From: Planctomycetes bacterium GWC2_45_44
GTDB lineage: Bacteria; Planctomycetota; Phycisphaerae; Sedimentisphaerales; UBA12454
Direction of reading: 5' to 3'
Assembly: GCA_001824555.1 (NCBI GenBank)
Contig: MHXU01000008.1
Span: 7,485 to 40,619, forward strand
Length of the DNA stretch: 33,135 bases
Shown: piece after piece, positions 3,954-30,204 of the stretch
Layout of the letters: every line of letters starts with the position of its first letter
Position numbering within the stretch: position 1 is the first letter of the stretch
Notes under the pieces: model-generated
Databases searched by the model: none
What the model was told of the DNA's origin: nothing
What the model saw: only the letters and a program-made list of their open reading frames with translations
Translations under genes and position numbers: made by a program

Positions 3954-5489
3954 TTATGTTTTTCTTACCAGATCAATTTTTGCACAAGACATGGTATCAG
4001 CCACATATTTCACCGTAGGCATTGCTCTGAGGGGATATTCTGAACCAAAAACAAAATGATTTCTTCCAAATTTTCTTAAGACATTTATTAAAGAACCTGC
4101 AACATCTGTAAGTCTACTTATTTCACAATATATCATTGAATCAGATCGTTTATTAGTTAACAGAGCATCAATTCCAGTTTCATGGAGTGCTTGAAAATAA
4201 TACGTGTTCAATGGAGCATTGGCAGCAAACCAATTTAACTCACTAATACTAACCTGTCGGATTGGAATCGGATACATATAAAATCTATTATCACCCAAAT
4301 CACAATTAATCCAGACAGGAAACTTATCTTTTGCACAAGATTCAAAAAAGTCTCGGCAGTTCGTATCCTGCAAACTCCAACGGTGAAAGTAAGGTGAAAC
4401 CAATACCCCCGCGAAATCCTGCTTTGCCTGGTCGAGCAATGGCCGCCAATCCCCAAGTGGATCAATAGTTGCCAGAGGTTTTATTTGAGAAGAACCAGCC
4501 ACTTCGGTAATAAATTTATTATTTTTATCTGCTAAATCATCGTTATGCAACGTTTCGGCATTCGCAACAAAGGCTGTATATTTATTGCGAATAAGTTCAC
4601 ACTCAAGCTCCTCAATACTTACCCCTGTTCCCAAGAATGTAAACTTGCCTGCAAAGCAGAAATGATCGACCACCTCACTCATAAATTGCATTGTTTTAGA
4701 ATTGTAATTAGTAATTTGCTGAGAAGCTGCTGAATTTCCATTCAGCCCAAAAACTCTGCAAGAATTTTTATAGAGCAATAATTCTCTCTGTGAATCTGTA
4801 ATATTAGAAAATATTATTTTAGCTAGTTGCGAACTCTGTTCGCGTCCATACATATCGCTGCCAAAAAGAACATGCTCGTCTCCAAGTTCGCGTACGATCG
4901 TCTCAACCATTGTCCGTTGTGGGAAAGAGCCAGAGATGTCCACATAGACATTATCAAGATTTGCAAGTTGTTTGATACCTATTTGCCAATTGCCTCCAGC
5001 ATGTGCTGCTATAATGGTAGTTTGAGGAATTTTTTTGGCAAGTGACGCGACTTCCAGTGTATTGATTTCACCTTTAAATAAATCAACCTGACGATTGAAT
5101 GAATGAATTAACACAGGTATTTTCAGTTTGCCAGCACACTCCAGAATCGGCCAGACACCTTCAATACTGCCATCAGATGATTTAATTGAAATCCAAAGCT
5201 TAATTCCTATCGCCCCCTTATTCAGGCATAACTGCAATTCTTTCGGCCAGTTTGCGTTCTGAGGATTGATATACGCCAGCCATCGAACAAGTCCCCTGGA
5301 ATACTGTGCAAATTCAAATGCAAGGTCGTTTGCCTTTCGAACCACTTCCTTGCTGGGATATTGTGGCCAATCCGTAACCCCAAGAGCAGAAGCAATAGCA
5401 ATCGAAACATTATTTGTTCTGCAAGTATGAATAAACTTCGGCCAATCACTTTTATTAAGCGGCACATGAGTATGCATGTCGATAATCAT
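3954..5489 (-). CDS. Two-domain amidohydrolase (Amidohydro_2), second barrel degenerate
   Basis: This 511-aa protein has two tandem Amidohydro_2 TIM barrels, where family members normally have one. The first (residues 1 to about 255) keeps the metal-site pattern: H6-x-H8 in MIIDMHTHV, H129 in IPVLIHS, H163 in IIAAHAGG and D212 in FGSDMYGRE. The second (about 260-511) keeps the overall order and the late FGSEYP (481-486, Glu in place of Asp) but lacks the HxH and the barrel histidines, so it is probably not catalytic. Members of this family are lactonases, decarboxylases and related hydrolases; a sugar-lactonase role fits the neighbouring dehydrogenases and the dehydratase-like enzyme. A good ribosome site (CGGAG) precedes the ATG. 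It is the last gene of the minus-strand cluster. The substrate cannot be read from the sequence. Confidence 0.85.
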   Translation of the reverse strand: MIIDMHTHVPLNKSDWPKFIHTCRTNNVSIAIASALGVTDWPQYPSKEVVRKANDLAFEFAQYSRGLVRWLAYINPQNANWPKELQLCLNKGAIGIKLWISIKSSDGSIEGVWPILECAGKLKIPVLIHSFNRQVDLFKGEINTLEVASLAKKIPQTTIIAAHAGGNWQIGIKQLANLDNVYVDISGSFPQRTMVETIVRELGDEHVLFGSDMYGREQSSQLAKIIFSNITDSQRELLLYKNSCRVFGLNGNSAASQQITNYNSKTMQFMSEVVDHFCFAGKFTFLGTGVSIEELECELIRNKYTAFVANAETLHNDDLADKNNKFITEVAGSSQIKPLATIDPLGDWRPLLDQAKQDFAGVLVSPYFHRWSLQDTNCRDFFESCAKDKFPVWINCDLGDNRFYMYPIPIRQVSISELNWFAANAPLNTYYFQALHETGIDALLTNKRSDSMIYCEISRLTDVAGSLINVLRKFGRNHFVFGSEYPLRAMPTVKYVADTMSCAKIDLVRKT

Positions 5490-5557
5490 TTATTCTCCGA
5501 ATTTTCTAAAATTTTGAATTATACAAATTAAACAGCATACATAAATTTATTTCATGC

Positions 5558-5683
5558 TCATTTGGCGGCATTTGCATCGCATGCCTCATCTGAACGAAAA
5601 CCAGAATTATAGACGCAAGTATATTTTGCCCGACCAAGTTTATTCATAACTTCAGTAAACTCTTCAGGGTGAGAGTACCAATA
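5558..5683 (-). pseudogene. Unidentified 41-codon gene remnant
   Basis: Between the enolase-superfamily gene and the two-domain amidohydrolase, a minus-strand frame preceded by a stop reads YWYSHPEEFTEVMNKL, then RAKYTCVYNSGFRSDEACDA, and ends at TGA (5558-5560). The composition looks like real protein (HPEEF, SGFRSDEACDA) but no start codon or ribosome site fits. It is most likely the C-terminal tail of a deleted gene. The family is not recognised. Confidence 0.35.
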
Positions 5684-5711
5684 TCAACAGCTCCTATTCA
5701 AATCATAATAA

Positions 5712-7007
5712 CTACTTTCCAATCCCAATTAACTCTTTATAATATTTGCTATGCAAAAATATTCCACCGCTTTGGCTGTAGAAATCCTGATTCAAGTTGA
5801 ATATCCCATCTTTGGCTTCTATCCAGTCCGCTCCGGACATTGAATGATTATTTTTCATCTGCTGCCAGTTTTTATAATTCTGATAGCCATTGGATTCCAA
5901 TACCCCTATCTTCATGCCCGGTAATGCAGGTAATCGGGCGGCAACATTTTTGTTCCAATCGACCAAAATAGGATTGACCGTCAAATCAGCGCAAAAGCAT
6001 GGAATATTTTTCTCATGGGCAAGTCTGGCTATCTTCAAACTCATACTCATTGTCTTGGCTATCGGTTTTAATGCTATCGCGGTGTAACCCTGCTGGATTC
6101 TAACTAAGGCATCTTTATCTGAATGGGTGCTTTCATCGGCGGCAACTCTAACTGGAATATCAGAAACATCCTCCTGAAATTCTTCCGGGAAAGGCTCTTC
6201 CATGAGGATTATCCTGTCGAGTGCACCTAATTTTTTAGCATAGTCAATAAATCTCATCAATCTGTCTTTGCTGTCATATCTGCCATTGGCATCAAAATAA
6301 TATGGAACTTTTCCATTGTTTATATATGGAGTCTCAATATTTTTTACTGCTTCATGAATTTCTTTTAGTCTGTTTTTGTCCCAATCAAGCATCTTGTCAA
6401 GATTGCCATCTTTGTCAGGGTCCGAGCCTATTTTTATCTTTAAAAAGAAATAGCCCTGCTTTACCACCTCGACAATTTTATCCAATGGTACGTTATAGCT
6501 CATCAAAGGTATGTTGGCCAGTTTATCATGTTTGCAGTTAAGGGCAGGTTTAATATCAGTGGGAAGCATATCATCAAAATTAGTAATGCCTTTAGCTTTG
6601 CAGTAAATAACCCAGGCGGCATTATCAACTGCGACAAGGCTGTTAAGGGCAAATGTAAGTCTCAGATGCGGATTATTCGTTATCTTTTTGCCATATTCAT
6701 AAACATCGGGCAGGATTTTTTCAAGTAAATCAAACGGTGTATCCCATTCTATCTCTTTTACTCTTTCAAGGGCATAAGATGTCGCTAAAAACATCATGCC
6801 ATTGCCCGCTGATTCGCTGTTTGATGTAAAGACTTGTGAGTCTGACCATAATGTGCTTTGCGTACCAAGGCCTGTGCCTTCATTGCCCTTGCCATCTCCA
6901 AGCAAAACTACAGACTGCCATAGTTCAGATAGATAGCCCCCTTTGAAGCCCAAGGGGGCTATTAGTGGCTCGCGTTCAAAATTGCAGTTTGTCTTTACTA
7001 TTCTCAT
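5712..7007 (-). CDS. Enolase-superfamily enzyme (mandelate racemase/muconate lactonizing type)
   Basis: The chosen start is the ATG at 7007 (431 aa). An in-frame TTG at 7049 would add 14 residues that come from the decayed Gfo/Idh gene just upstream. Motifs, numbered from the longer form: K204-x-K206 in FLKIKIG, metal ligands D253 (YFDANG), E285 (MEEPF) and D305/E306 (AADES), and a candidate general base/acid K328 (IALKP). The KxK plus late Lys arrangement resembles the MLE/dipeptide-epimerase branch more than the His-containing mandelate racemase branch. Enzymes of this superfamily abstract a proton alpha to a carboxylate, giving dehydration, racemisation or cycloisomerisation. Next to a DHDPS-family aldolase and Amidohydro_2 proteins, an acid-sugar dehydratase or epimerase is plausible. 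The length is typical. Confidence 0.85.
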   Translation of the reverse strand: MRIVKTNCNFEREPLIAPLGFKGGYLSELWQSVVLLGDGKGNEGTGLGTQSTLWSDSQVFTSNSESAGNGMMFLATSYALERVKEIEWDTPFDLLEKILPDVYEYGKKITNNPHLRLTFALNSLVAVDNAAWVIYCKAKGITNFDDMLPTDIKPALNCKHDKLANIPLMSYNVPLDKIVEVVKQGYFFLKIKIGSDPDKDGNLDKMLDWDKNRLKEIHEAVKNIETPYINNGKVPYYFDANGRYDSKDRLMRFIDYAKKLGALDRIILMEEPFPEEFQEDVSDIPVRVAADESTHSDKDALVRIQQGYTAIALKPIAKTMSMSLKIARLAHEKNIPCFCADLTVNPILVDWNKNVAARLPALPGMKIGVLESNGYQNYKNWQQMKNNHSMSGADWIEAKDGIFNLNQDFYSQSGGIFLHSKYYKELIGIGK

Positions 7008-7011
7008 GGTT

Positions 7012-7393
7012 CTAATCGTTGAAGAATTTCTTAGCTTCAGTTCAATCAAGTGGCAATGATATCAGCTTTTTAAATTTCGCAGACATCTTCGCTGCCCAGC
7101 CAAGCTATAATCCGGGAATTTACAAATCTAAGCGGTGATTTGATTTTATTTTTTACACATTCAATAAAATGTCCAACAGCGGAGCCGGTCTGATGTTCAA
7201 CAACGTTGCCGCTGTCCGGTGTTGTTGTATCCTGTGGCCAGGCCAAATCACCTGAGTTTGATTTATCCAAAGGTCTTATCCATTTGCCATTTGTTGTCTT
7301 ATTTCGCATCATCGCGTTCAGTGAGCCTTTTGAGCTGAGCTGAACCGAACCCATCCAGCCGACACCAACAAAACCTACTTTAAGTTCGTACAT
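7012..7393 (-). pseudogene. Gfo/Idh/MocA oxidoreductase, internally deleted and frameshifted
   Basis: The frame starts at ATG 7393 with a normal dinucleotide-binding head (KVGFVGVGWMGSVQL), then jumps after about 20 residues to a C-terminal segment (GNVVEHQTGSAVGHFIECV, KSPL), so roughly 200 or more residues are missing. The frame stops at TAA 7070-7072. Shifting by one base recovers the tail KKLISLPLD, a TGA (7042-7044) where the related tail at 14276-14380 has Trp, then TEAKKFFND and TAG at 7012-7014. Internal deletion, frameshift and nonsense codon together mark a dead gene. Its debris ends 4 bp before the chosen start of the enolase-superfamily gene. Confidence 0.75.
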
Positions 7394-7437
7394 AATAAAC
7401 TTTGACAAAAATATAAGCTAATTTGAAATTACTAAGG

Positions 7438-7671
7438 TTACATCACTATTGTTGTTTTTATCTTTTTTTGAGATTCATTAAATTTATTGACCATATTTTC
7501 TGCCTGAAACATTGAGACCCCCTATCCATTTTTGGAAATCTTAATAATCTCATTTCGAACCGCTTCAGACTTTTCCATCAATGAATAGAGCGGCCACAAT
7601 GAACCTGTTCCCCAGCCATAAAAACTATAGTCGTCTTCGGTATATAGATATACATGCGCGTCAACTGTCAT
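7438..7671 (-). pseudogene. Small ORF overlapping the aminotransferase stop, broken by TAG
   Basis: The ATG (7671-7669) overlaps the TGA of the class III aminotransferase gene (ATGA arrangement). The frame reads MTVDAHVYLYTEDDYSFYG, then GSLWPLYSLMEKSEAVRNEI, for 49 codons to TAG (7522-7524). It continues in frame for 27 more codons (GVSMFQAENMVNKFNESQKK) to TAA at 7438. The family is not recognised. The coupled start suggests it was translated after the aminotransferase; the internal stop suggests decay. It could also be a functional 49-residue peptide. Confidence 0.35.
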
Positions 7672-8918
7672 GGGTTATTACCGGAAGTTGCCATTTCCTT
7701 GATTGCACATTCCATTCTTTCAAGTGCCTCCGCAATGTCATTTTCTTTATGAGCATAATTTACATATGAAACATTATACAATGACACTCCATACTTGTAG
7801 CAGGCGCAAAAAAATAACTTCGCAAGACTATTACTTGCAAATTCTATCAGTGGACATACTTCAAATCCTTTAACTTGTGCGCCAATGCCATACCTGCCAA
7901 ATAAGGCATTAACTTCAGGCCATATTTTTTTTCCTGTTTTCCACAGATTTTCGATAACCTTATTGTCCTGATAATACCGTATACACACCTTTGCAGCCGC
8001 TAAAGATAAAGTTTCGCCACCAAAAGTAGAGGAAATACCTAATCCTTCAGCTGAATCAAGAAGCTCTGCCCTCCCCGTGTAAACCGATAGCGGCATACCG
8101 TTTGAAATTCCTTTTGCAAATACAGCCATATCCGGCATAAAATTGAAATATTCATGCGCACCGCCTATGGCAAGTCTGAAGCCGGTAACAATTTCATCCA
8201 TTATCATTAGTGCTCCATACTGTTGTGTAAGCCTGCGCATTGCCGGTAAGAAATGCAATCCTTCGGACATGTTCGAATAATCGCAGGCAATTACAACGGC
8301 TGCTATTTTATCTCCAATTTTACGAAACACATTCTCCCATACATCTTCCTTGCCCCATGGCATCATATGATGAAGCGCTGCAAGAGAAGCTGGCACTCCT
8401 TTGGTGGGGTTGCTATTTATCAAACCAGATGGCCTAAAACCTTCATCGCTAAGGCTATTAAGCCACCCATTATAACCACACTGCAAAATAACATCCCTAT
8501 TGGTTGCATTTCTAGCAATTTTAATACAGGCAGCAATTGCTTCGCCTCCGGTTTTTAAAAAACGAACACGCTGCGCACATGGAACAACATTCACCAGCAT
8601 TTCTGCAACTTCACCCTCAAGAGGATGTGGATGGCCAAACACAACACCATTTTGCAACTGCATTTTTATGGCCTCATCAATTTCAGGCACACCGTATCCA
8701 AGCGTCACAGGCCCAAGCCCATTACGAAAATCGATATATTCATTGCCGTCTGCATCCCATACACGACATCCCTTTCCCTTTACAATGCTTGCCGGTTCAA
8801 CTCCGGTAAACAAAGGTATTTTCGAGTTAGTGGAACTGCCACTTGCCAGATATTGTCTGCTTCTAAGGTAACTATCCCATGCTTTTTTATCACTCATTGG
8901 AAGATTCCATAATTTCAT
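7668..8918 (-). CDS. Class III PLP aminotransferase, glutamate-1-semialdehyde-aminomutase-like
   Basis: This 416-aa fold-type I PLP enzyme has VKGKGCRVWDADGNEYIDF (about 46-64) as the typical head of class III aminotransferases, TGGEA (123-127) for phosphate binding, MDEIVTGFR with D241 for the pyridine nitrogen, and FAKGISNGMP with K269 as the Schiff-base lysine. The pattern is closest to the HemL-like group, but a catabolic cluster makes haem synthesis unlikely. Amine transfer or an aminomutase step on a sugar- or amino-acid-derived aldehyde or ketone is more plausible. It starts 21 bp after the GH123-like gene. An internal ATG at residue 8 is an alternative start. No key residue is missing. 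Confidence 0.88.
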   Translation of the reverse strand: MKLWNLPMSDKKAWDSYLRSRQYLASGSSTNSKIPLFTGVEPASIVKGKGCRVWDADGNEYIDFRNGLGPVTLGYGVPEIDEAIKMQLQNGVVFGHPHPLEGEVAEMLVNVVPCAQRVRFLKTGGEAIAACIKIARNATNRDVILQCGYNGWLNSLSDEGFRPSGLINSNPTKGVPASLAALHHMMPWGKEDVWENVFRKIGDKIAAVVIACDYSNMSEGLHFLPAMRRLTQQYGALMIMDEIVTGFRLAIGGAHEYFNFMPDMAVFAKGISNGMPLSVYTGRAELLDSAEGLGISSTFGGETLSLAAAKVCIRYYQDNKVIENLWKTGKKIWPEVNALFGRYGIGAQVKGFEVCPLIEFASNSLAKLFFCACYKYGVSLYNVSYVNYAHKENDIAEALERMECAIKEMATSGNNP

Positions 8919-8939
8919 CTAAATGCTGTCCAGGTATCT

Positions 8940-11795
8940 TCACTCCCTGCGGCATCTTTTCCTGGCTAATATATCATCGGCCTTAACGAGCATTTCTGCA
9001 GTCATTTGCCTGAACTGATAAAAATCCATTGCAGTCAATTTCAATGGCAGACTGCGAGCGCCTCCCACAAATTTTTCAGGAGGAACATCGAGCAGATTTT
9101 TTGCTTGTATCATAAATTTTTTATCTTGTGAACTGAACGTGTCAAAGCCTATCTTTTCGGCCTGCTTTACACGTTTCTCAAGCATTTCAAGATATCTGAC
9201 ATCATCTCTGCCTTCACGAAAAGCCTCATACTGCCATGTCAAAACCGGGCCACTTTCCCCCCTGTAAGCATAATGCATCGGCCGATAATGGAAATCGCCT
9301 TCCCAATCATCCCAGTCTCCCAATGCATTGTAGGCATATGGATAACTTCCGGTGTATCCACCATACCATATCATCAGTCCACTTAATAACCTGTCTGGCA
9401 TCGTATTTTCCAATGGGTGCCAATAAAACCATGCTTCATCATAAGGTAATTTACGACGTTGCTCACTTATTACACCACTCGGCATATCCAGTACAGGCAA
9501 ATCCAGATTGCCTAATTCTTTTGCACCTTGCAAGTCAATGGCGACAGCCGTTTTCATATTGCCCTCATGCGTCCATTGGTTCATTATACGGCACATACGC
9601 ATAGCCTTGCCCGTACTATCGTAGCCCGGTTCGTCCCAAGTATAAAAGTAGAAGTCGATGCCCGTTTCCGCTGCAATCTTTGACAGCTCTTTACAAAACT
9701 TTATCAGATTGGCTTTATGCTGTGACTCTGAAACCAATTGCTCTTCAGAAATCCTACACAATAAATCTAAAGGCTGGGTGTACCAATTGTTGCCCCAGTA
9801 TACAGTTTTGCCTGTCAATCCATATTTCTTACGCAACTCCAATGCCTTTCTTATCACAGTAAAATCATAGCTAATTACAAAGCCGTCTTTCATCCGGGCA
9901 TCGGCTCCTTCTAAAATGGGCATCGAAGTGAACCCATGATCTGCGGCAACACGCAAATCCTCTTGATAGCAGGCATCATTGTTAGGATCTTTACCATTGC
10001 TATACCTGCCTAAATAATACATCGTAGAGGTAAATTTGCTTGGCTCAATTGACAAAGGCAGCACTTTTATTTCAACTGGAATGCGCGCAAGTGCAACGTC
10101 CCCGGACATTGCCTCTGCATAACCACGATACAAGCCTGGCTTCTGTTCCTTTGGAATGTATGCCGTCAACCAAAACTGACGGCTCTGGAAACGACTAATG
10201 TGCACCGACTTGAGATATGGGCTGTCTGCAATACTATGGACAATATTTCGCTGGATGTTGTGGTCTGAATCAATTATTGAATCATTTTTTAACAATAATT
10301 CGCCCGTCCATACCACATTTCCGGCTTTATCTACTTCCGACTCTGTGCCGGCCTGATACCAATATTTCAATACTCGTATGTCAATATTGCTGCAATCCAA
10401 CACATCACCGGCATCAGACAAAAGATTGTTAATCTTTAAAATCACATCGTGTCCGGCATCCAACATTAGAACATTAACGCAGCCCGGCTCATATTCACCT
10501 CGCATTGCTGTGATGCTGACTTTTCCACCAATATCGCAGGGATTAGGAATATAATCATAGTCAGTACTTGTAAACGGCGGCAAAGAGAACCACATCGCTG
10601 TTTTAGATTGCCATTGGCAATCGAGACCGATAAGCCATTCGACAATTCTGCATTCATGCAACAATTTTTCTATGGAGCGTTTTTCGCTGTTACAATCAAG
10701 AACCTTAAGCTGCCCCTGCCATGTGTTTTTGATGCCATCAAGAAGCGCAGGTGTTTTTTGCTTGCTCAACTTATTAACTAATTTCTCTGCATTTGCAAGC
10801 ATTATAACCCTGATGTCGTATTTCCCTGTACTCATACGCTCACTGCGATATAGCACCTTGGCAGGCTTGGCTGTAGAAAACAACTCAATCTGACCTAAAA
10901 CGAGATTTTCTGACAAAGGAAACCGCTCTGTAAATTGAGTGGGTTTGTCAGCTTTAATATGTGAAATTGCATCCCTGACCATTTCTTTATTATCAAACCA
11001 ATTGTAGCGTATTTTATAATTACCTGACACCGCCGCTTGAATGATAAAGTTTAGTTCATTCTCTGGCGGCAGGTCATAAGCAGTCTTAGGATTTTGCTTG
11101 AGAGACGAATGTATGCTTTGCAGCAATCTTTGCTTGAGAAAAATTACCTCTCCAAATCTTTCACGGTCAGTAAATGAATTAGTCCCCGACCACGAGGAAA
11201 TGTTTGATGCACCAACTCTGTTTCTACAGATGTTCATCCGCCACACAGTGCCATCATTGGGGTATTGCTCGCCAAGTGTTTTGAAGGGAATTGCCATTTC
11301 AACCGTCCAACAGTCTTCCCCTGATTTTGCCGCTGATTGCCAATTGCCGTTCCACTGCGCAGGGATGTCTATATCACGACATTCTTCAGTCGTCCCTTTT
11401 GAATTGATACAAAACTGGAAATATACTTCCGCCCCGGGTGTAGCAGCAATAAAAAACTCTAAATCATCATCCTGCCATATCCCACTGTCATGCTCTGTTT
11501 TATTGGTGACTATTTTGTCCATAAAGGGCTCATCAAGGCGAATCCCAAGATAGAGATTATTCGAATCATACCCCAGCATCACAGTGGTCTGTACAGGATT
11601 AATCGTATATGAACCGTTAACAAATGCTCCTATGGAGGGCAATTGAGTCCAGCATTGCTCATCGAGAATACCATCTATCTTTGGAGTCTGTATAACTGGC
11701 TGACAGGGATATCGTGGCATCTGAAATTCCCCAAAACACAAACCAGCCAGAATAAGTATGAGCAACAAGACCGCAAAGCGTTTTTCTTGAAACAC
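8940..11795 (-). CDS. Secreted glycoside hydrolase-like protein (CBM9-like N-terminus, GH123/DUF4091 C-terminus)
   Basis: This 951-aa protein starts at GTG with AGAAAGG upstream. The signal peptide is MFQEKRFAVLLLILILAGLCF. Residues about 30-230 resemble the CBM9-like domain of surface glycan-active proteins (PKIDGILDEQCW, NNLYLGIRLDEP, DDDLEFFI). The C-terminal half resembles GH123/DUF4091: a barrel from about residue 585, TWDEPG with the adjacent pair D721-E722, and the closing DWDDWEGDFHYRP and REGRDDVRYLEMLE segments. GH123 enzymes use a neighbouring Asp-Glu pair in substrate-assisted cleavage of N-acetylhexosamines, so release of an amino sugar is a reasonable inference, not shown. It probably acts outside the cytoplasm and feeds the symporter. 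Confidence 0.8.
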   Translation of the reverse strand: MFQEKRFAVLLLILILAGLCFGEFQMPRYPCQPVIQTPKIDGILDEQCWTQLPSIGAFVNGSYTINPVQTTVMLGYDSNNLYLGIRLDEPFMDKIVTNKTEHDSGIWQDDDLEFFIAATPGAEVYFQFCINSKGTTEECRDIDIPAQWNGNWQSAAKSGEDCWTVEMAIPFKTLGEQYPNDGTVWRMNICRNRVGASNISSWSGTNSFTDRERFGEVIFLKQRLLQSIHSSLKQNPKTAYDLPPENELNFIIQAAVSGNYKIRYNWFDNKEMVRDAISHIKADKPTQFTERFPLSENLVLGQIELFSTAKPAKVLYRSERMSTGKYDIRVIMLANAEKLVNKLSKQKTPALLDGIKNTWQGQLKVLDCNSEKRSIEKLLHECRIVEWLIGLDCQWQSKTAMWFSLPPFTSTDYDYIPNPCDIGGKVSITAMRGEYEPGCVNVLMLDAGHDVILKINNLLSDAGDVLDCSNIDIRVLKYWYQAGTESEVDKAGNVVWTGELLLKNDSIIDSDHNIQRNIVHSIADSPYLKSVHISRFQSRQFWLTAYIPKEQKPGLYRGYAEAMSGDVALARIPVEIKVLPLSIEPSKFTSTMYYLGRYSNGKDPNNDACYQEDLRVAADHGFTSMPILEGADARMKDGFVISYDFTVIRKALELRKKYGLTGKTVYWGNNWYTQPLDLLCRISEEQLVSESQHKANLIKFCKELSKIAAETGIDFYFYTWDEPGYDSTGKAMRMCRIMNQWTHEGNMKTAVAIDLQGAKELGNLDLPVLDMPSGVISEQRRKLPYDEAWFYWHPLENTMPDRLLSGLMIWYGGYTGSYPYAYNALGDWDDWEGDFHYRPMHYAYRGESGPVLTWQYEAFREGRDDVRYLEMLEKRVKQAEKIGFDTFSSQDKKFMIQAKNLLDVPPEKFVGGARSLPLKLTAMDFYQFRQMTAEMLVKADDILARKRCRRE

Positions 11796-12034
11796 GTAAA
11801 ACCTTTCTATAAAATTACAGATAAGTTTTTAAAATCAAAACCACATCCCATATAAATCGAAGACTGGTATTCCTTTCAGTCCACTGACTTACGCAGCTAT
11901 TTCGGCCGCCTCGAACATCCGGCATGGCTGGCCATTATGCGAACCAACATAAATCAGCGTTTACTCTGGCCAAATTAGTCAAAACTATTTTATCAACCAA
12001 TCACACCCACCTTTTAAGGTATACGGCACGTAGC
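11796..12034. other. Intergenic gap inside the cluster
   Basis: 239 bp separate the DHDPS-family gene and the GH123-like gene, the largest apparently gene-free gap in the metabolic block. Minus-strand frames here are short and show no family motif. An internal promoter for the GH123-like gene could lie here, but no convincing box pair was found. Confidence 0.35.
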
Positions 12035-13141: not shown

Positions 13142-13159
13142 GGAAACATCTTTCTCACA

Positions 13160-14191: not shown

Positions 14192-14275
14192 ATCAGCAAT
14201 AGACACCCTTAAAAACAAAGAGAGCTATTAATGACTCATGTTAAAAATTACATTTGTTTTAGCAAGACTCATGGA

Positions 14276-14380
14276 CTATTCTTTGAAAAACTTCCTGGCT
14301 TCATTCCAATCCAACGGCAATGATACCGACTGTTTTAACGAAGCAACCATTTGCGCCACCCAGTCGAGTTCAATCTGCCA
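14276..14380 (-). pseudogene. Orphan C-terminal tail, probably of a Gfo/Idh/MocA oxidoreductase
   Basis: A minus-strand frame of 34 codons between the MttB-like and SDR genes reads WQIELDWVAQMV, then SVSLPLDWNEARKFFKE, then TAG at 14276-14278. It aligns with the tail of the broken Gfo/Idh gene at 7012-7393 (ISLPLD-TEAKKFFND), with Trp where that copy has TGA. No start codon or N-terminal domain is nearby. It is the leftover of a second related gene or of a duplication followed by deletion. The Gfo/Idh assignment rests on that alignment. Confidence 0.6.
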
Positions 14381-14394
14381 GACAAATACAAATT

Positions 14395-15813: not shown

Positions 15814-15883
15814 TTTAATCTACCCTTCAATTTACATAGACAGGGAATTCCCATGCCCTTAAGAACAATTCATAGATTTATAA

Positions 15884-17796: not shown

Positions 17797-17852
17797 ATGC
17801 GCCTTTGTTACAAAATCACATTACTTCAAAAAAAGTTTTATCACTGGCATTT

Positions 17853-19799
17853 TTATATCTGAACATCTCCTTGTTTCCCCGGCTTTTTAACCCATCCGTC
17901 ATCTGAAACATCAACTCTTGTACCACCAAGAATTCTAAACATCTCTATTAAATTTTTAAAACCACCTATGGCAAGCCAAACCGCTACAATGACCGCAAAT
18001 CCGAACATCGAAAATATCCAGATGTGCCAGAATTTCAGCCAGATGCTATCCGAGATGCCAAAGAAAAAATTCCACATTACTCCTGCAATAAAAACAAGTG
18101 TCCAGAACACCATCCAGATGAGCATTATAGCATAAAACATTTTATCCGATTTGGTAAATTCTTTGGTAATAAATTTCGTCCAGATATTTGTAAAATATTT
18201 TTTTAACGTTCCATCTTTATCAACCTGCTGTTCAGCATCCTTGTGTAAAAGACTATTCAAATCAAATTTACATCCAGACAACAAAGAAACTATAATGTAT
18301 ATAGCGATAGAAGAAACCATTGCAATGAAAAATATTTCCTGGCCCGTTAAACAAAAATCAGGTGAAATTTGTTTTACGATAATGCCTCCAACGCCAATCA
18401 CCGCACCATTTACCATAGCCAGATATGCCGCCAGTGTAGTTCCCCTGCTCCAGTAGAGGCCACCAATAATCGCTGAACCTGCTCCACCAAGAAATATAGC
18501 GCCTGTTACTGCAAAAAACATTAGAATATATTGAGCATTGCAAAATATCAGACTAAAGAAAAAACCAAATATAGCCACGCCCGTTATAGATAAACGAAGT
18601 GCCAGCATGTGCTGCTTGGGCGTAAAGGGAGTTTTTCGAAAAGGCATTATCACATCCTGCACAAAAATACTTCCCCATGAATGCAAATAAGTTTCATTAG
18701 TGCCGATGAGCGCACCGAGCATAACCGCACAAAACACGCCTATCAAACCGGTTGGCAAAATAATCCTCAAGGCAATCGGAACAAGCGCTTCCTCACGCAC
18801 CATATTTGTTGGATCAGAACTTATGCCATTTAACGAACCAATTACTTTCTCAGCCTGTCCAAAATAATTATGATGATGCATAAGAACATAAACGCATATC
18901 GGAGCAAATGTAAGAACTATAAGCAAGACATAACTGCGCAATTGCTGAATCACACCGCCCATTTTTGCCTCATGAGCAGATTTGGCAGAACACGCGTATC
19001 CACTTGACCCCTGCCAGGCCATACATGTATAAAACTGACCAAATATCACTATAAGAAAAAAACCAAGATTAAACTCTCCCTCATTGCCTATATTAAAAGG
19101 ATTTACCTTTGATTCAGCAATAGGAGCGGCTAAAAGCGTCTCAGAAATATCCGACCATTTAAAATAGACTATAAGAAAAAAAAAGATTGCAATCCCGGCA
19201 AAATTAAAAAATGTACCCTGCAAAAAATCTGAAACAATTATAGAAATCTGACCGCCAACAAACGCGAAAAATAACGCAACTACAAGAAGGACTGCCATCA
19301 AAACCGCATAAGTTGACATTTCAATGCCAGCAAATTCAAATCGCATCGGAAGGTTACAATAATATATAAAAAACCTTGTACTGACTGCGGGAAATATGCC
19401 AAAATTTATTATCCCGGATAAAAAACCAAGTATGCCTGCAAAAAGCCTGAAATTTCTGCTATACCTCTTCTCAAAAAACTCAGCCAGCGTCATTGCTCGT
19501 GTCTGTCTGTAACGATAGGCAACCCAACCAGACATAGTTATTATAAGGCCGGCCGGGAGAGACATCAATTCCCACCATTTGGCAGTAAAGCCCGTCCTGT
19601 AATACAGTTGAAACATTGCTATAATCGCTATCGCACCAAGCGAAGAACTACCTCCAGCTACAGCTAAAATGTATCGGCTGGCACAACGTTCCGCGGCTAA
19701 AAAACCGGCAACGCTTTTTACATATTTTCTGGTATAAAGAACAGATCCAATCAAAAATGCAATAAATGCAAAAACAATACCCCAGTCAATCAATTGCAT
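17853..19799 (-). CDS. Sodium:solute symporter (SSS/SLC5 family)
   Basis: This 648-aa polytopic membrane protein has many hydrophobic segments along its length. Family features are an early ...VAGFLAAERCASRYILAVA region, SSLGAIA in the first helical unit, YRQTRAMTLAEFFEKRY, and the AAYLAMVNGAVIGVG region in the later helices. SSS proteins co-transport a sugar, amino acid, vitamin or sialic acid with sodium. As the only transporter in the cluster it most likely imports the product of the secreted hydrolases. It is longer than a minimal SSS protein (about 500 aa) because of a C-terminal helical extension, common in planctomycete members. GGAG precedes the ATG. The substrate cannot be inferred from sequence alone. 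Confidence 0.92.
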   Translation of the reverse strand: MQLIDWGIVFAFIAFLIGSVLYTRKYVKSVAGFLAAERCASRYILAVAGGSSSLGAIAIIAMFQLYYRTGFTAKWWELMSLPAGLIITMSGWVAYRYRQTRAMTLAEFFEKRYSRNFRLFAGILGFLSGIINFGIFPAVSTRFFIYYCNLPMRFEFAGIEMSTYAVLMAVLLVVALFFAFVGGQISIIVSDFLQGTFFNFAGIAIFFFLIVYFKWSDISETLLAAPIAESKVNPFNIGNEGEFNLGFFLIVIFGQFYTCMAWQGSSGYACSAKSAHEAKMGGVIQQLRSYVLLIVLTFAPICVYVLMHHHNYFGQAEKVIGSLNGISSDPTNMVREEALVPIALRIILPTGLIGVFCAVMLGALIGTNETYLHSWGSIFVQDVIMPFRKTPFTPKQHMLALRLSITGVAIFGFFFSLIFCNAQYILMFFAVTGAIFLGGAGSAIIGGLYWSRGTTLAAYLAMVNGAVIGVGGIIVKQISPDFCLTGQEIFFIAMVSSIAIYIIVSLLSGCKFDLNSLLHKDAEQQVDKDGTLKKYFTNIWTKFITKEFTKSDKMFYAIMLIWMVFWTLVFIAGVMWNFFFGISDSIWLKFWHIWIFSMFGFAVIVAVWLAIGGFKNLIEMFRILGGTRVDVSDDGWVKKPGKQGDVQI

Positions 19800-19885
19800 A
19801 TTATCTACTCCAATACAAATCTACAAACACCGTGGTCAAAAAAATAAGCAATACAGTCTAATATCAAATAACGCTCACGTCTTTT

Positions 19886-21160
19886 TTAAGCAACGAGAAA
19901 AGCGTTTTCCACTTTCTTGATTGAGGCCAGAATTTTCTCGACCTCTTTTTGGCCATAACGTTCGTTAATCCATACATTGAAGTGTGTTTCTGTTACAGAA
20001 ACGGCATTCTTCAAGTCATACTTAGGCTTCTTTTCTCCTTTGTATAGCGGGCAACTCCAGGGGAATCCCTGGGTACCAAATGCAGATTGATTTTCAAACC
20101 AGGGTTTTTCGCACTGTATGTGACGATAGGTGGGAGAAACAAGAGGACCTTCTGCGCTTATAGCATCACAGAATGTCTCCTTACTAACTCTTATCACATT
20201 CAAATCAAGTTTAAGATTCAGAAACCAGTAAGAAGATTTGGAGTCAGGTACCTGCCAAACGAAACTTACCGCTTTACAATCCTTTAGGCCTGCTTTTATT
20301 GCATCGCCAACCAACCTGCGATTTTTAAGAATGCCGGGCAATTTTTTAAGCTGAGCAATTCCAATAGCCGCAGAAAGTTCATTTGAATTACAGTTGATAC
20401 CTGCTACAACATTTTTAGTCTCACCGGCAATATTAAAAGGCTTGCCCCTATCTGCAAACCTTCTTGCACGCCAGTGCAAATTTTCATTTTTTGTATAAAC
20501 AACACCGCCCTGACCTCCTGTACAATGATGCTTTCCGCTCATAGTTGAAAAAGCGGCAATATCTCCAAACCTGCCAACAAGTTCACCTCTATAAACAGCT
20601 CCATGCGCCTGTGCACAATCCTCAATTACATACAGTTCATGCTTACGAGCAAGCTCCATCACCGGACACATATCTACTGGATCGCCTGCAATATGCGCAA
20701 CTATTATTGCCCGTGTTCTCTCTGTGATTAAACGTTCTATTTGCTCAGCAGAAGTATTATAGGTTCGTGGGTCCGAATCGGCAAAAACAGGAATAAGCCC
20801 CATCATAACAACAGGCATTACACCGCCTGCATCAGTAATAGGCGGTACGACTACCTCAGAAAAAGGCTCTATTTGCAAACCGCCAAGTGCACAATATATC
20901 GCATTTGTGCCCGAATTGACACCATCAGCAAAACCACCACCCATAAAGTTCACAAAATCCTGCTCATACTGTGCCTCATACTTTTCACCGTAATCAAAGG
21001 CATTACCAGTTTCGATAGCTTCATCAAAAACCTTTATGGCCATAAATTTTTCTTCTTCACCAATCAAGCCTCTTTGTGGCAACGGTTCACTACAAACCGG
21101 TGTACCTCCATCAATAGCAAGTTTTTCAACAACTTTACGATTTACTACAGAACTATTCAT
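19886..21160 (-). CDS. DegT/DnrJ/EryC1/StrS-family PLP aminotransferase
   Basis: This 424-aa protein has the sugar-aminotransferase fold with VNSGTNAIYCALGGL (81-95), VIEDCAQAHGA with D181, and FSTMSGKHHCTGGQGG with K210 as the PLP lysine, followed by AGINCNSNELSAAIGIAQL. Biosynthetic members put an amino group on nucleotide-linked keto-sugars. Many planctomycete homologues sit in catabolic clusters like this one, where the role may be the reverse or act on a free amino sugar or keto-inositol. AAGGAA precedes the ATG. It lies between the secreted lipoprotein and the symporter genes, so it is probably one of the first intracellular steps. Confidence 0.9.
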   Translation of the reverse strand: MNSSVVNRKVVEKLAIDGGTPVCSEPLPQRGLIGEEEKFMAIKVFDEAIETGNAFDYGEKYEAQYEQDFVNFMGGGFADGVNSGTNAIYCALGGLQIEPFSEVVVPPITDAGGVMPVVMMGLIPVFADSDPRTYNTSAEQIERLITERTRAIIVAHIAGDPVDMCPVMELARKHELYVIEDCAQAHGAVYRGELVGRFGDIAAFSTMSGKHHCTGGQGGVVYTKNENLHWRARRFADRGKPFNIAGETKNVVAGINCNSNELSAAIGIAQLKKLPGILKNRRLVGDAIKAGLKDCKAVSFVWQVPDSKSSYWFLNLKLDLNVIRVSKETFCDAISAEGPLVSPTYRHIQCEKPWFENQSAFGTQGFPWSCPLYKGEKKPKYDLKNAVSVTETHFNVWINERYGQKEVEKILASIKKVENAFLVA

Positions 21161-21257
21161 AACTATATTCCTTTTCCACTCATAACTTCAATTAATACAT
21201 TAATTTTTTGAATAATTTCGATAATACAAAAGCATTCTCACTTATACACGCCAAGCG

Positions 21258-24035
21258 TCATTCAACCTGTGATAAAATTCGTATAAAGTTAACTGCGACC
21301 CATGGAGGATAGCCTTGAGGTCCAGTACCTATATTTGATATCGCTATTACGTTTTTGCCCTTGACGAGCAACTCCTCATTAAACTTAATTCTTTTTACCA
21401 ACCAGCTTTGATCTGGAAAATCACTTGCTCCTTCAAAAACAACACTGCCATTAACCATAATTTTGATTGAAGCTTTGGTAGCATCCCCGTCATCTTTTGC
21501 TCCTAATTCAAGTACAGGATTATTAAATTGTTTATCCATATTAAAAGAAAATTCTAATTCCGAAAAATTACTTCCCTTACCATAAATAACCTTCGTCGTT
21601 TCATTCTCCATCTTTGCTACATCATACCCCCCCTTACAATCGTTAGAATCCACAAATATTGTTATACTATTGGGATCATATTTTCCCGCCAGAGGTTTTA
21701 TTATGTCGTAAATCAATTCTTTCGGCGCAGGTATTGAATCCGAAATTTTACCCAAATATTTCCTGATTGAGACTGAATCCCCCTGATTAAAATACAGGAT
21801 GCTATATCTATAAAACTTTTCCAGCTTGACAAGAGTACAGCCTTGCCGCTCCGTATAAGGTAACGAGACAACAGTATCAAAATCGGGTGAAATCAAAAAC
21901 ACATCTTTGATATCATTAGCTTCCACTGATATTGTTATCGCCTTGTCCTGCTTGTTGAGCATTGACATTACATCAGGAAATTCCAGACACCGAGTCATCG
22001 GGACTTTACCATCGGTCAAATATGCTCCTGTTAAATTCGCCAAGTGAACCTGTATGCCTTTTATACCACCAAGATGGTGATTGTACGCCTCGGCAACTAC
22101 ACCTTTGGGTAAATAGCTTAATTGTACTGGCAATCTCTTAGTGTTGGACAATATTGTATCACACAATAGCTTGCCGTATTCAGGCTTGCGCTCATCTTTC
22201 CAGTATTGCCCAGGAACTATCTTTGGGGCGCCATAATAACTAAAGAAATAATTCAGTTCAGGATAGCCGGCAAAATAAATCACCTTTCCCTTGCCATAGT
22301 TCCGCACAAGGAAACCAGGATATTCTTTGCCACTTGCCAAAACCATCCTGCCGGCCACTGTGACATCGGAAGCGATATTCTTAAGCTGGACAAATGATTG
22401 TTTGTGTTCCAATTCCTTCCCATCACCCAAAACCAGCTTACTTGGTTCTTTTGTCAAGTCTTGATAACTAAAGCCGAAAATTTCACTTAAGCCAAAATCT
22501 GATCGTTTTTTGCCTGTCTGGTCATATAGCGATGTCGAAGAAGAAGCAATTAGAGTGCCGCCATTCTGAACAAAATCTTTGGCTGTTTGCACTGCTTTAT
22601 CAGACATAGACCCTGTGTTGAATAAAAGCAAGGTGTCTATCTTATCATTTAAAGATTTTTCCTGCATATCGCTTTCGAGAATGACTTTATAAGGCAAATG
22701 CCCATCTGTCATAGCATAACATACTCCGGCAAAACTTTGAGACCAACTGATGCTGCTTGTGGTTTCCGGATTTCTGTCACGCGTATCCAATGAAAACAAT
22801 ATACCTATATTAGCAGCGTTTTTAAGATTTGAACAAATTTTTGCAAATTTATTTTCCCAGGAAATCAGCGGCGCTCTTACTTTTTCATTTCCGCCGTCTC
22901 GCCACCAGACACTTGACCCCTGACTCATCATAACAAACCAGTTTAGAACAGTATCAGAATTTGTCTGATTGTAAAATAATGTCCACATTCCCGAATTATT
23001 TCCTTCGGCTACTGCTCTCAGATATTTCATTTCGAAGATTATCTGAGGCCAATAATAAAGATACTGGAAATCCGGCGGCTGGCATTCATATCCAACATTG
23101 TCTGCAAAAGCAGGAAAATCATCTATTACAAGACCCGTTGCATAATAACACCAAATCGCTGAATTACTGGAAACATAATGCGTAACAATGCCATCAGGGT
23201 TGTATTTCTTCAGCAACGTCCTGACTTTTTTCATATTTTCCATAACTTTGGCTCTTCTCCATTCAAGCCATGCTGCGTAAGATGGACTATCAGCAAAATG
23301 ATAAATCCAACCGTCAGAATTTTCAGGAATATCGAAGCCCGTGTCAGCTTTAAACTTCTCACGGCATGATTTACAACCACATGTTGTAGGACCCCAGAAT
23401 TGTATTTCATCCTGCATTATTCCATCCGGCCTGACCTCTTTAATATACGTCTCAAGTCTGTCCAGATAGGCTTTCATAAAATCATCGTTATTAATACAGG
23501 CGGAAACTGTGCCATACCCGTTAACTCGCGGTTTATTTGTTGCCAAGTCTATCATCGTCCAATCTGGATGCTTTTCAAGCAATTGCTGGCTTATCATCGT
23601 GCTTGTGAGATGGACATAAAATTTCATTCCATATTTATGGCACGCATCGACCAACTTTTTGGTACTATCTATATTCTCTGGAAAAGGCAAGAACTTTAAT
23701 GCGTTAGGTACAGGCTCTTCAATACTATCTCTGAATAAGTATCGACTCCCTTCAGACAGAATTACACTAAAACCCTGATCATAATAATGTTTTATCTTCT
23801 CATCGGCCTGCTGTAGTGTCAATGAACCATATTCACAATCTGTCATAACCATAAAATTTTTAGCATCTACCGCGTTTTCTGATTTATTTTCAAAATCATA
23901 GGCTGGATAACTGAACAATTGCTTGCGCGTTTGGTAATGCACGCTGTTTGCATCGCTCTGCTGGGCATTTGTAATAGTTGAGCAGCCAACCAATACGACA
24001 AAAGTTAAACTAAAAATTTTCAAAGCAATTTTCAC
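21258..24035 (-). CDS. Lipoprotein glycoside hydrolase-like protein (beta-galactosidase-like barrel plus trimerisation-type domain)
   Basis: This 925-aa protein starts at GTG (GGAG upstream). The signal peptide ends in a lipobox LVGC with C18, so it is probably membrane-anchored. Residues about 60-400 look like a GH-A-type TIM barrel: VRPDGIMQDEIQFWGP carries D209-E210, followed by a Cys-rich turn TTCGCKSC typical of barrels related to GH42. Residues about 400-550 resemble the glutamine-amidotransferase-like domain of GH42 beta-galactosidases (NIGILFSLDTRD, LLLFNTGSMSD, FVQNGGTLIASSS). The last 100 or so residues look like a beta-sandwich (LELGAKDDGDATKASIKIMV). It probably trims a glycan at the cell surface. 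No exact GH family is claimed. Confidence 0.75.
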   Translation of the reverse strand: MKIALKIFSLTFVVLVGCSTITNAQQSDANSVHYQTRKQLFSYPAYDFENKSENAVDAKNFMVMTDCEYGSLTLQQADEKIKHYYDQGFSVILSEGSRYLFRDSIEEPVPNALKFLPFPENIDSTKKLVDACHKYGMKFYVHLTSTMISQQLLEKHPDWTMIDLATNKPRVNGYGTVSACINNDDFMKAYLDRLETYIKEVRPDGIMQDEIQFWGPTTCGCKSCREKFKADTGFDIPENSDGWIYHFADSPSYAAWLEWRRAKVMENMKKVRTLLKKYNPDGIVTHYVSSNSAIWCYYATGLVIDDFPAFADNVGYECQPPDFQYLYYWPQIIFEMKYLRAVAEGNNSGMWTLFYNQTNSDTVLNWFVMMSQGSSVWWRDGGNEKVRAPLISWENKFAKICSNLKNAANIGILFSLDTRDRNPETTSSISWSQSFAGVCYAMTDGHLPYKVILESDMQEKSLNDKIDTLLLFNTGSMSDKAVQTAKDFVQNGGTLIASSSTSLYDQTGKKRSDFGLSEIFGFSYQDLTKEPSKLVLGDGKELEHKQSFVQLKNIASDVTVAGRMVLASGKEYPGFLVRNYGKGKVIYFAGYPELNYFFSYYGAPKIVPGQYWKDERKPEYGKLLCDTILSNTKRLPVQLSYLPKGVVAEAYNHHLGGIKGIQVHLANLTGAYLTDGKVPMTRCLEFPDVMSMLNKQDKAITISVEANDIKDVFLISPDFDTVVSLPYTERQGCTLVKLEKFYRYSILYFNQGDSVSIRKYLGKISDSIPAPKELIYDIIKPLAGKYDPNSITIFVDSNDCKGGYDVAKMENETTKVIYGKGSNFSELEFSFNMDKQFNNPVLELGAKDDGDATKASIKIMVNGSVVFEGASDFPDQSWLVKRIKFNEELLVKGKNVIAISNIGTGPQGYPPWVAVNFIRILSQVE

Positions 24036-24096
24036 GATAATATCTCCATAAAATACCTAAAAATTCAAACGTAATAAGAAGCGACCATGTTTATCG

Positions 24097-25002
24097 TCAG
24101 ATGTGAAGCTTCAGCAGCCGGATACAATTTTGGCCTGTTATCTTATCAAACATATCGACCGTTATCTTTTCTTCATCTCTAAGTTGTCTCAGCCATTCCA
24201 AATGCTGCATGTCATTGGTAATTACACAGTAATCCTGCCCAAAAACAAGACGATCCTGAAACTCATCAAGAAACTCGTAAGTAAAAGATAAATCTCTTGT
24301 CATGCTCTCATATCCGCTGCCGGCAGAAAGGTCACACCACAAATTGGGATACTTTCTCATAAGCTCTACTATACGGCCTCCCGGCTCAACTGGCCCTTCT
24401 AATGTGCCGTCATAGATGGTCTTTCCTGCAAGTTTGCAGTTACCGCTTATATGAGACCAGAAAGTAGCCCCATGGCCAAGTATAACCAGCTCAGGAAATT
24501 TTTTGAGTACCGTTTCCATTCTTGGCAACCCAATATCATCAAGAACGCCATAATCATGCACCGGAGGTACGGTCATATGAATAAGTATGGGAAAACCAAC
24601 TTTTTGACAAGCCTCGCAAAAGACCAGCATCCTCGGATCATCCCAATATATCCTGCTCGCAAACTCACCCACACCTTTAAAACCAAGTTCTTTATACTGT
24701 TCTAAATGGAAAACAAATTCGGATACTACTGTTTCCCCGACATTCGCTTTCATTCTTGGGTCCATATTACAAAATGGTATAAATCTGCCCGGATATTTCT
24801 CACAAATATGTAGAATTTCACCTGAACTTTGAGGCTCCCATGGAACTTCGGGAGCACAAAGAGGCAAAATTACAGCCTTGTCAATTCCCTTTAAATCCAT
24901 GATTTCTATCTGTTGTTCTGCAGATAGCGGCACTGAAGGAGACCCGCGATACGAACGTATTTTAGGCCACGCATAAACATGAGCATGCATGTCTATTATC
25001 AT
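24097..25002 (-). CDS. Amidohydrolase (Amidohydro_2), single domain
   Basis: This 301-aa protein, of normal family length, has H6-x-H8 in MIIDMHAHV, H142 in ILIHMTVPP, H177 in LGHGATFW and D257 in VFGQDY (usually GSDYP). These form the metal and acid positions of the barrel. The family includes lactonases of uronic acid and 6-deoxy-sugar pathways, 2-pyrone-4,6-dicarboxylate lactonase and decarboxylases. A lactonase following a sugar dehydrogenase is the role most consistent with the cluster. AAGGA precedes the ATG and the gene follows the isomerase-like gene by 18 bp. It shares its first residues (MIIDMH) with the two-domain protein at the far end of the cluster, so the two may be ancient duplicates. 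Confidence 0.88.
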   Translation of the reverse strand: MIIDMHAHVYAWPKIRSYRGSPSVPLSAEQQIEIMDLKGIDKAVILPLCAPEVPWEPQSSGEILHICEKYPGRFIPFCNMDPRMKANVGETVVSEFVFHLEQYKELGFKGVGEFASRIYWDDPRMLVFCEACQKVGFPILIHMTVPPVHDYGVLDDIGLPRMETVLKKFPELVILGHGATFWSHISGNCKLAGKTIYDGTLEGPVEPGGRIVELMRKYPNLWCDLSAGSGYESMTRDLSFTYEFLDEFQDRLVFGQDYCVITNDMQHLEWLRQLRDEEKITVDMFDKITGQNCIRLLKLHI

Positions 25003-25020
25003 AAATTATTCCTTGAGTAA

Positions 25021-25884
25021 TCAATCATTAAAAGTTGAAAACGGCGATTGAGGTCCTGACGGCGACTCTTTTTCACACTGCTTTAAAAAATCAAGTCCAT
25101 CTTTGAGCATTTTTTCAGGCTCAGGCTTAAAAAATTCCTCCATTGAAATCCAGCCATTAAAATTACACACTTTAGCCGCAAACATCATCTCTGCCCAGTC
25201 AACATATCCTGAATCAAGTAAACTAATTTCATATGACCAGCCAGCCCTGACAGGGCCATCTTTTCTGATTAAACCCGTCCAAACATGGCGAAGATTCTTA
25301 GCATGAATACTTGCAAGATATGAACCCATAATTTCAATTGCCAATCGAGGCCTGATAAAGCCCTCCACAACACCATTGCCTGGATCATACAAAAGCCCGA
25401 CATGATTCGGGTCAAGTCCATCAAGAAGCATCTTGCCTATCACTGGAGATGCACAGAGACCACCCATATGTGTTTCTATAACATATTTTATTCCATATTC
25501 ACTGCCAAGTTCGACAAGTTTGTCAAGACCATTTCTGCATATAGCAAAAAGCTCGTTAAAACTTTGTTTTTGATGCAAAGATTCATCATAGTTAAATGCA
25601 ACCCATGGAGCTGTAACACGCAAATAACCAGCCCCTGTTCCGGCGACGGCTTCACTATAACTTCGCATAAGGTTTTCTTTCCAAAGATGCCCCGCGTTCA
25701 GAAAACCAGCAATCTTAAGACCATAATCAGATGAAGCCTTGACCATATCTTTAGCAGCCTGCTTATAATCTTTTTCAGGCAAGCCCCATTCAATACCATC
25801 AAATCCTAATTTACCAGCCATCCGAACAATATCTATGGTAGAAAATTGCTCCATCAAACAATTGGTATTTATAGCATATTTCAC
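25021..25884 (-). CDS. Sugar phosphate isomerase/epimerase-like TIM barrel, second copy
   Basis: This 287-aa protein has the same fold class as the gene at 16900-17796 but is clearly divergent. Metal-site segments are VIETHMGG, LLYDPGNG, SIHAKNLRHV and ISMEEF. A strong ribosome site (AGGAG, then TAATTTGTGAA before the ATG) marks the start. It is the first cytoplasmic gene of the metabolic block and is followed after 18 bp by the amidohydrolase. Relatives interconvert ketoses and aldoses or epimerise keto-sugars. Confidence 0.88.
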   Translation of the reverse strand: MKYAINTNCLMEQFSTIDIVRMAGKLGFDGIEWGLPEKDYKQAAKDMVKASSDYGLKIAGFLNAGHLWKENLMRSYSEAVAGTGAGYLRVTAPWVAFNYDESLHQKQSFNELFAICRNGLDKLVELGSEYGIKYVIETHMGGLCASPVIGKMLLDGLDPNHVGLLYDPGNGVVEGFIRPRLAIEIMGSYLASIHAKNLRHVWTGLIRKDGPVRAGWSYEISLLDSGYVDWAEMMFAAKVCNFNGWISMEEFFKPEPEKMLKDGLDFLKQCEKESPSGPQSPFSTFND

Positions 25885-30110: not shown

Positions 30111-30142
30111 TTGACACTCCTATTTTTATTCAACTATCGCCG

Positions 30143-30187: not shown

Positions 30188-30204
30188 CTTCTACTATCTA
30201 AATT

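Follow-up and report, generated by a model that had tools for sequence, protein, structure and literature searches.

The question raised by this locus is whether one block of codirectional genes encodes one pathway. In the 33,135-nucleotide stretch of Planctomycetes bacterium GWC2_45_44 analyzed here (the window), open reading frames (ORFs) on the minus strand span 3954-25884, and a reading made from the letters alone (the sequence-only reading) had proposed that they form a single non-phosphorylative route for an amino or methylated sugar, leading from dehydrogenase through lactonase and acid-sugar dehydratase to aldolase. The families named there were largely borne out by ORF calling and by Pfam and NCBIfam scans, on which the family assignments in the window are based, and the evidence supports a catabolic locus of carbohydrate type in which pyridoxal phosphate (PLP) enzymes are joined by an MttB homologue. 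The single linear pathway is not supported; both active-site motifs and the separate recurrence of its gene sets in other genomes argue against it. We consider the best explanation, with about even confidence, to be a mosaic carbohydrate-type utilization locus that combines several gene sets, each conserved independently of the others and one of them broken. The most interesting part of the locus, above the proposed pathway, is a cross-phylum two-gene module, here called EPIM-DHDPS.

The module consists of a DHDPS-fold Schiff-base enzyme (12035-13141, minus strand), assigned by Pfam DHDPS, alignment and a structural model, and its extended-SDR-like partner EPIM (SDR, short-chain dehydrogenase/reductase; 13160-14218, minus strand), assigned by Pfam Epimerase/SDR. 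A profile search matched EPIM to solved GalE-like proteins; a single-sequence search against solved structures gave no match. EPIM was also present in at least 105 of 117 DHDPS loci from the Planctomycetota, Bacteroidota, Bacillota and other phyla, a lower bound owing to the small contigs that make up some of these loci, and in the loci with both ORFs clustered it was nearly always located directly upstream of DHDPS on the same strand. Several of the relatives are fragmentary metagenome-assembled genomes, and the neighbor clusters were built on mechanical ORF calls. Within the class, DHDPS matches were detected in 39 of 248 genomes (the source included), most of them at 49-59% identity, and the 12 other genomes of the same family yielded one marginal match only. 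Further relatives were found in Paenibacillus, Pedobacter, Larkinella, Latescibacteria and Omnitrophota, as well as in alphaproteobacterial and actinobacterial plasmid records; a search of viral contigs returned no EPIM relatives. EPIM-DHDPS is a separately travelling module that recurs across many phyla, and no description of it was found in the literature searched, which lacked most subscription journals.

The pair repeatedly has an Nramp transporter gene (27 loci) or an SH-motif Gfo/Idh dehydrogenase gene (17 loci) in its vicinity, as well as genes for M20 deacylases (15 and 5 loci) and for the subunits of an iron-sulfur L-serine dehydratase (11 and 9 loci). A GNAT-like protein, assigned from weak NCBIfam matches, occurs in 8 loci, and a PLP threonine-dehydratase-like protein, assigned by reading its sequence, in 5. 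Gfo/Idh and sugar-isomerase-type genes lie near the pair in Aquisphaera, Glaciihabitans, Mesobacillus and Nitratireductor, the last of which also carries a D-serine ammonia-lyase nearby and an annotated mandelate racemase beside EPIM. Co-occurrence of the window's genes in relatives, which the sequence-only reading had proposed as its own check, largely fails: the 117 DHDPS loci contained an enolase-superfamily (MR_MLE) relative in 3 cases, an MttB homologue in 1 and, with identities of no more than 23-27%, a match to the aminomutase-like PLP enzyme described below in 5. The whole gene set was not seen together in any inspected locus; its modules recur separately. In Larkinella (7709-12423 of its locus) and Adhaeribacter (7679-17889), SusC/SusD-like genes, an Nramp-type transporter, EPIM and DHDPS stand in a row, the SusC/SusD-like calls being judged by length and sequence; an MR_MLE relative comes next after the row in Larkinella and a few genes further on in Adhaeribacter.

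The active-site readings given here are based on sequence and predicted structure only; rows from plasmid records were excluded from an alignment used for structure prediction. In the DHDPS-like protein, the strand-6 lysine that forms the Schiff base (Lys184) is invariant in 51 relatives and aligns with the lysine of the DHDPS/NAL family, and the catalytic Tyr156 is retained in at least 90% of them; the model (pLDDT 92) has the NAL/DHDPS fold. In this family the GxTGE-type motif binds the keto-acid carboxylate. At the aligned position the 51 relatives have VH(S/T)TQF, such that the KDG-type aldolase of the sequence-only reading retains the Schiff-base lysine and the tyrosine but not the keto-acid motif. 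The window protein further differs from the known members of the family, N-acetylneuraminate lyase and DHDPS, in its length (368 versus ∼300 residues) and in its dedicated SDR partner gene. The roles of the lysine and tyrosine in the family have been described, together with a dehydratase whose substrate-binding motif is likewise replaced (PMC9795676); a non-aldolase reaction is thus plausible for the window protein. In EPIM, Tyr183 is invariant, while the lysine of YxxxK is replaced, mostly by cysteine, and was never observed among 38 relatives.

A second conserved set is formed by a DegT/DnrJ/EryC1/StrS PLP enzyme (19886-21160, minus strand; Pfam, 229 bits) and an Amidohydro_2 enzyme, AMH (24097-25002, minus strand; Pfam and residue alignment), its partner in other genomes. 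The solved relatives of the former are sugar aminotransferases, including scyllo-inositol transaminase, with the PLP lysine aligned. In AMH, residues H6, H8, H142, H177 and D257, which include the metal ligands, are invariant in seven relatives, and the nearest solved proteins, at weak E-values, are an uncharacterized amidohydrolase and LigW/resorcylate decarboxylases. Among the loci listed, DegT relatives adjoin an Amidohydro_2 gene in about 10; these loci were chosen by a DegT or AMH match, and the counts are therefore not unbiased rates. The window also encodes a Gfo/Idh/MocA dehydrogenase (15884-16903, minus strand; Pfam GFO_IDH_MocA; NCBIfam IolG at 145 bits, cut-off 355) and two AP_endonuc_2 (xylose-isomerase-like) barrels assigned by Pfam, namely APE2a (16900-17796, minus strand), whose gene overlaps that of the dehydrogenase by 4 nucleotides, and APE2b (25021-25884, minus strand), a 27% identical relative of which precedes the DegT-AMH pair on contig C8 of genome G011. 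On that contig (G011:C8), AP_endonuc_2, DegT, AMH, AP_endonuc_2 and Gfo/Idh genes are consecutive, the last product being 62% identical to that of window 15884-16903. An SH-motif Gfo/Idh gene, of the same subfamily as that found near EPIM-DHDPS, follows the DegT-Amidohydro_2 genes on the source genome's own C89 and C42, on G011:C6 and on G011:C25. A route for a keto or amino sugar would accord with the presence of DegT, Gfo/Idh and AP_endonuc_2 proteins as partners. Inositol/aminocyclitol-type sets (IolG, inosose aminotransferases) likewise combine a Gfo/Idh dehydrogenase with a DegT PLP enzyme and AP_endonuc_2 barrels, and a further likeness lies in IolG as the best NCBIfam model for the window dehydrogenase and in the scyllo-inositol transaminase among the solved DegT relatives. 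The window differs from them in its scores, which are far under the curated cut-offs, in its Amidohydro_2 partner and in its catabolic context with secreted hydrolases.

The second PLP enzyme, a glutamate-1-semialdehyde-aminomutase-like protein (GSAM; 7668-8918, minus strand), was assigned by Pfam Aminotran_3 and by NCBIfam GSAM models (224 bits, under their cut-offs); its solved relatives are GSAMs, and orthologues at 53-63% identity occur in genomes G011, G088, G098 and G116. Among the loci listed, the GSAM relatives of G011, G088 and G116 are accompanied by two small genes of the Amidohydro_2 family, AMHa and AMHb. The gene list of the sequence-only reading had the families right, but what it took for a lactonase-type amidohydrolase at 3954-5489 (minus strand) is a fusion of two Amidohydro_2 domains, with the Pfam match on the first half; by profile, its halves correspond to two genes that stand separately beside GSAM elsewhere, AMHa (E 2e-54) and AMHb (E 3.5e-18). 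The HxH metal motif is kept in the first domain and lost in the second. In the window, the fusion and GSAM are separated by the MR_MLE gene and a Gfo/Idh remnant.

This remnant (7070-7408, minus strand), which the same list omitted, is a Gfo/Idh dehydrogenase pseudogene with an internal deletion of ∼740 nucleotides, as established by DNA and protein alignment to the intact paralogues on the source genome's C42 and C89. An intact Gfo/Idh gene precedes MR_MLE on C42 and at G011:C6, where the MR_MLE orthologues are 82% and 81% identical to the window protein, respectively; the window copy of the dehydrogenase keeps its ends only. Two URO-D-family proteins (C42:5892-6941 and 8747-9814) and transketolase-like halves lie near the intact pair on C42, and one of the former matches MtaA/CmuA-type methyltransferase models, under cut-off. 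The MR_MLE protein itself (5712-7049, minus strand; Pfam MR_MLE_C, residue alignment and AlphaFold model) had been read as the acid-sugar dehydratase. Its residues disagree: a strand-2 KxK motif (K204, K206), D253, E284, D305 and a strand-6 lysine (K328) are invariant in seven homologues, and the lysines were also compared in an alignment to a solved MR/MLE protein. No conserved histidine occurs beyond strand 6 in these homologues, where acid-sugar dehydratases (mandelate racemase, glucarate, mannonate or galactarate subgroups) have a strand-7 His-Asp dyad that supplies the general base. By sequence, this residue set, with its KxK, strand-6 lysine and metal ligands, would place the protein in the muconate-lactonizing (MLE) subgroup and is common to dipeptide epimerases, although similarity to solved proteins is very distant. 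The second check named by the sequence-only reading, a placement among the dipeptide epimerases, goes partly against that reading. The best solved matches in a profile search were weak (E ∼0.003; MR/MLE-family proteins, one a putative dipeptide epimerase), a single-sequence search against solved structures gave none, and Foldseek with the model (pLDDT 77, enolase fold), at 14-18% identity, did not separate the subgroups, since talarate dehydratases scored about as well as dipeptide epimerases.

The MttB-superfamily protein (14395-15813, minus strand) matches Pfam MTTB at 271.5 bits over profile positions 28-493 of 500, and TIGR02369 at 367.6 bits, under the cut-off of 525. It is of the non-pyrrolysine type: the gene is a 472-residue open frame lacking internal stops, with asparagine at the pyrrolysine site in an alignment to solved MttB. 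Pyrrolysine in this protein was considered and rejected, since the flagged TAG lies outside the gene and the frame has no internal stop. Like the MtgB-type members of the superfamily, it has a full-length MTTB domain, and identities over the family are 31-34%; it differs in its neighbors, which are DegT and AP_endonuc_2 genes, and in that the assembly revealed no corrinoid protein as its partner. Orthologues at 66-69% identity occur in four genomes, with DegT relatives (26-28% identity) nearby in all four; G027 and G133 have an AP_endonuc_2-like gene immediately upstream of it, and G027 and G220 an XRE-cupin regulator nearby. One Bacteroidia contig, a single case, carries EPIM-DHDPS-GNAT-MttB, its MttB at 29% identity. 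A search for B12-binding domains in the source assembly, which is 93% complete, found no corrinoid protein with the histidine ligand (DxHxxG). The genome's only B12-binding_2 match, the B12-binding_2/B12-binding protein at C60:6590-7300, does not have the His-ligand motif, and the remaining B12-binding matches read as radical-SAM-type; G027, G029 and G133 carry strong B12-binding_2 proteins of ∼220 residues on other contigs. In an assembly of this completeness, the apparent absence of a corrinoid partner is suggestive only. No relevant paper on MttB in planctomycetes was found in the literature searched.

Two large proteins with signal-like N-termini are probably secreted, as the sequence-only reading had proposed. 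One of them (8940-11795, minus strand) had been read as a GH123-like hydrolase; its sole firm domain is CBM9_1 (45.9 bits), and the GH123_N_2 match (19.9 bits) is under the Pfam cut-off of 27. The other, a putative hydrolase (21258-24035, minus strand), combines GHL6 (42.8 bits) with the GH42 trimerization domain GH42M, which scores at its cut-off of 25.8. The predicted importer is a sodium:solute symporter (SSS; 17853-19799, minus strand; Pfam SSF, 42.9 bits), with relatives at 43-54% identity near related clusters on C42 and G011:C6.

The window corresponds to C8:7485-40619 of the source assembly (G000; 2.93 Mb, 180 contigs), and its right end is the contig end. Gaps between the minus-strand ORFs are mostly short, the longer ones measuring 176-259 nucleotides, and from 14395 to 25884 the spacing is tight or overlapping. 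Apart from the remnant at 7070-7408, all of the large ORFs are intact and codirectional. The minus-strand block extends past 25884 into surface-type proteins (25943-32847), comprising a CBM96 protein, a DUF1559/pseudopilin protein and a large ORF with a dockerin-like end and no Pfam match. Because ORF 25943-29374 overlaps 29232-30110, its true start probably lies downstream of the annotated one. On the left flank, an oppositely oriented AAA_14/DUF4143 ATPase gene (2376-3680, plus strand) adjoins the cluster, and a similar-looking ATPase, judged from sequence only, lies next to the MR_MLE copy on C42 (104-1474 of that locus). A DDE transposase (914-2083, minus strand; Pfam DDE_Tnp_1 with DUF4372) is found on the same flank, and a serine-recombinase-like ORF, assigned by reading its sequence, lies outside the window on that side (C8:2609-4147); the two together could be expected of a region that is mobile or has been rearranged. 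Phage origin was rejected, as no phage-like genes were among the ORFs tested with Pfam.

In the mosaic that we favor, hydrolases with signal-like N-termini would release a small sugar-like compound, which the symporter, judging from its family, would import. For the recurring core of Gfo/Idh, AP_endonuc_2, DegT and Amidohydro_2 proteins, the probable substrate is a keto or amino sugar, which they would subject to oxidation, isomerization, PLP-dependent transamination or elimination, and hydrolysis or decarboxylation. EPIM-DHDPS would probably supply two steps, one of SDR type and one catalyzed by a Schiff-base lyase or dehydratase, on a substrate that differs from a simple pyruvate-type keto acid; the frequent serine/threonine dehydratase and M20 deacylase neighbors would suggest that this substrate is an amino-sugar acid or an N-acylated hydroxy-amino acid. 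GSAM-AMHa-AMHb and Gfo-MR_MLE would be further modules, the latter broken in this copy. Several points weigh against the mosaic: the neighbors of EPIM-DHDPS vary widely, and what links them may be common transport or regulation instead of a single pathway; the scheme assigns no role to the second PLP enzyme or to MttB; and it is built on limited samples of often fragmentary genomes. A more specific proposal, put forward tentatively as a possibility, is that EPIM-DHDPS constitutes an undescribed two-enzyme catabolic module, in which an amino-sugar acid or N-acylated hydroxy-amino acid would be prepared by the Lys-less SDR-fold protein and cleaved or dehydrated by the DHDPS-fold lyase with a new anion site, the product passing to serine/threonine dehydratases; in the window the module would be coupled to the DegT/Gfo/MttB sugar-amine core.

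The possibility that mobile elements assembled these genes by chance, or that the locus is a decaying genomic island of little functional unity, would account for the transposase, the serine-recombinase-like ORF and the internal-deletion remnant, and the near absence of DHDPS from family relatives and the separate occurrence of the modules elsewhere agree with it. We nevertheless regard it as unlikely, in view of the intact and codirectional state of the other large ORFs, the tight or overlapping spacing of 14395-25884 and the retained active-site residues of DHDPS and EPIM; the kept EPIM-DHDPS adjacency and the recurrence of the DegT-AMH and GSAM-AMHa-AMHb neighborhoods in other genomes argue for more than chance. 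Alternatively, the locus might serve the catabolism of a betaine or hydroxy-amino acid, with MttB demethylating a quaternary or N-methyl amine, MR_MLE epimerizing an amino acid or betaine, and the DHDPS-family protein deaminating or dehydrating the product. HpbD is an MLE-subgroup 4-hydroxyproline-betaine epimerase, a comparison that serves as a lead rather than a test. The non-pyrrolysine MttB and the MLE-type residues are in keeping with such a route, as are the serine dehydratases and M20 deacylases near EPIM-DHDPS and the one Bacteroidia contig; but a histidine-ligated corrinoid protein was not found in the assembly, just one of the 117 other loci has MttB near EPIM-DHDPS, and it is sugar-type hydrolases together with Gfo/Idh and DegT that predominate in the locus. 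We regard this explanation, too, as unlikely.

We consider it very unlikely that the locus encodes one Entner-Doudoroff-like route by which an amino or methylated sugar is degraded, MR_MLE being the dehydratase, the amidohydrolases lactonases and the DHDPS-fold protein a KDG-type aldolase. The superfamilies of that scheme are the right ones. The known non-phosphorylative aldopentose and deoxyhexose routes (reviewed in PMC9795676) also use members of the enolase superfamily, the DHDPS/NAL family, Gfo/Idh or SDR, and Amidohydro_2; three other genomes have MR_MLE in the vicinity of EPIM-DHDPS, the Nitratireductor EPIM has an annotated mandelate racemase beside it, and talarate dehydratases are among the Foldseek matches. 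Yet the window departs from those routes in its MLE-type residues with no His dyad, in the replaced GxTGE motif, in an AMH whose nearest solved matches, themselves weak, are not lactonases and in genes that are not conserved together. The claim that no kinase is visible stands within the window, where scans with Pfam and NCBIfam found no kinase families among the ORFs tested, but PfkB-family matches occur on nine contigs elsewhere in the genome, and "non-phosphorylative" can therefore not be deduced from the locus.

Clusters such as this one are easily annotated as non-phosphorylative sugar pathways, and the disagreement of the defining residues in several of the enzymes serves as a warning for automatic annotation. 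MttB-superfamily genes that occur with no recognizable corrinoid partner raise the question of the role of these proteins. The EPIM-DHDPS pair is strongly conserved and is present in culturable genera (Paenibacillus, Pedobacter and Larkinella), such that its function is open to direct testing.

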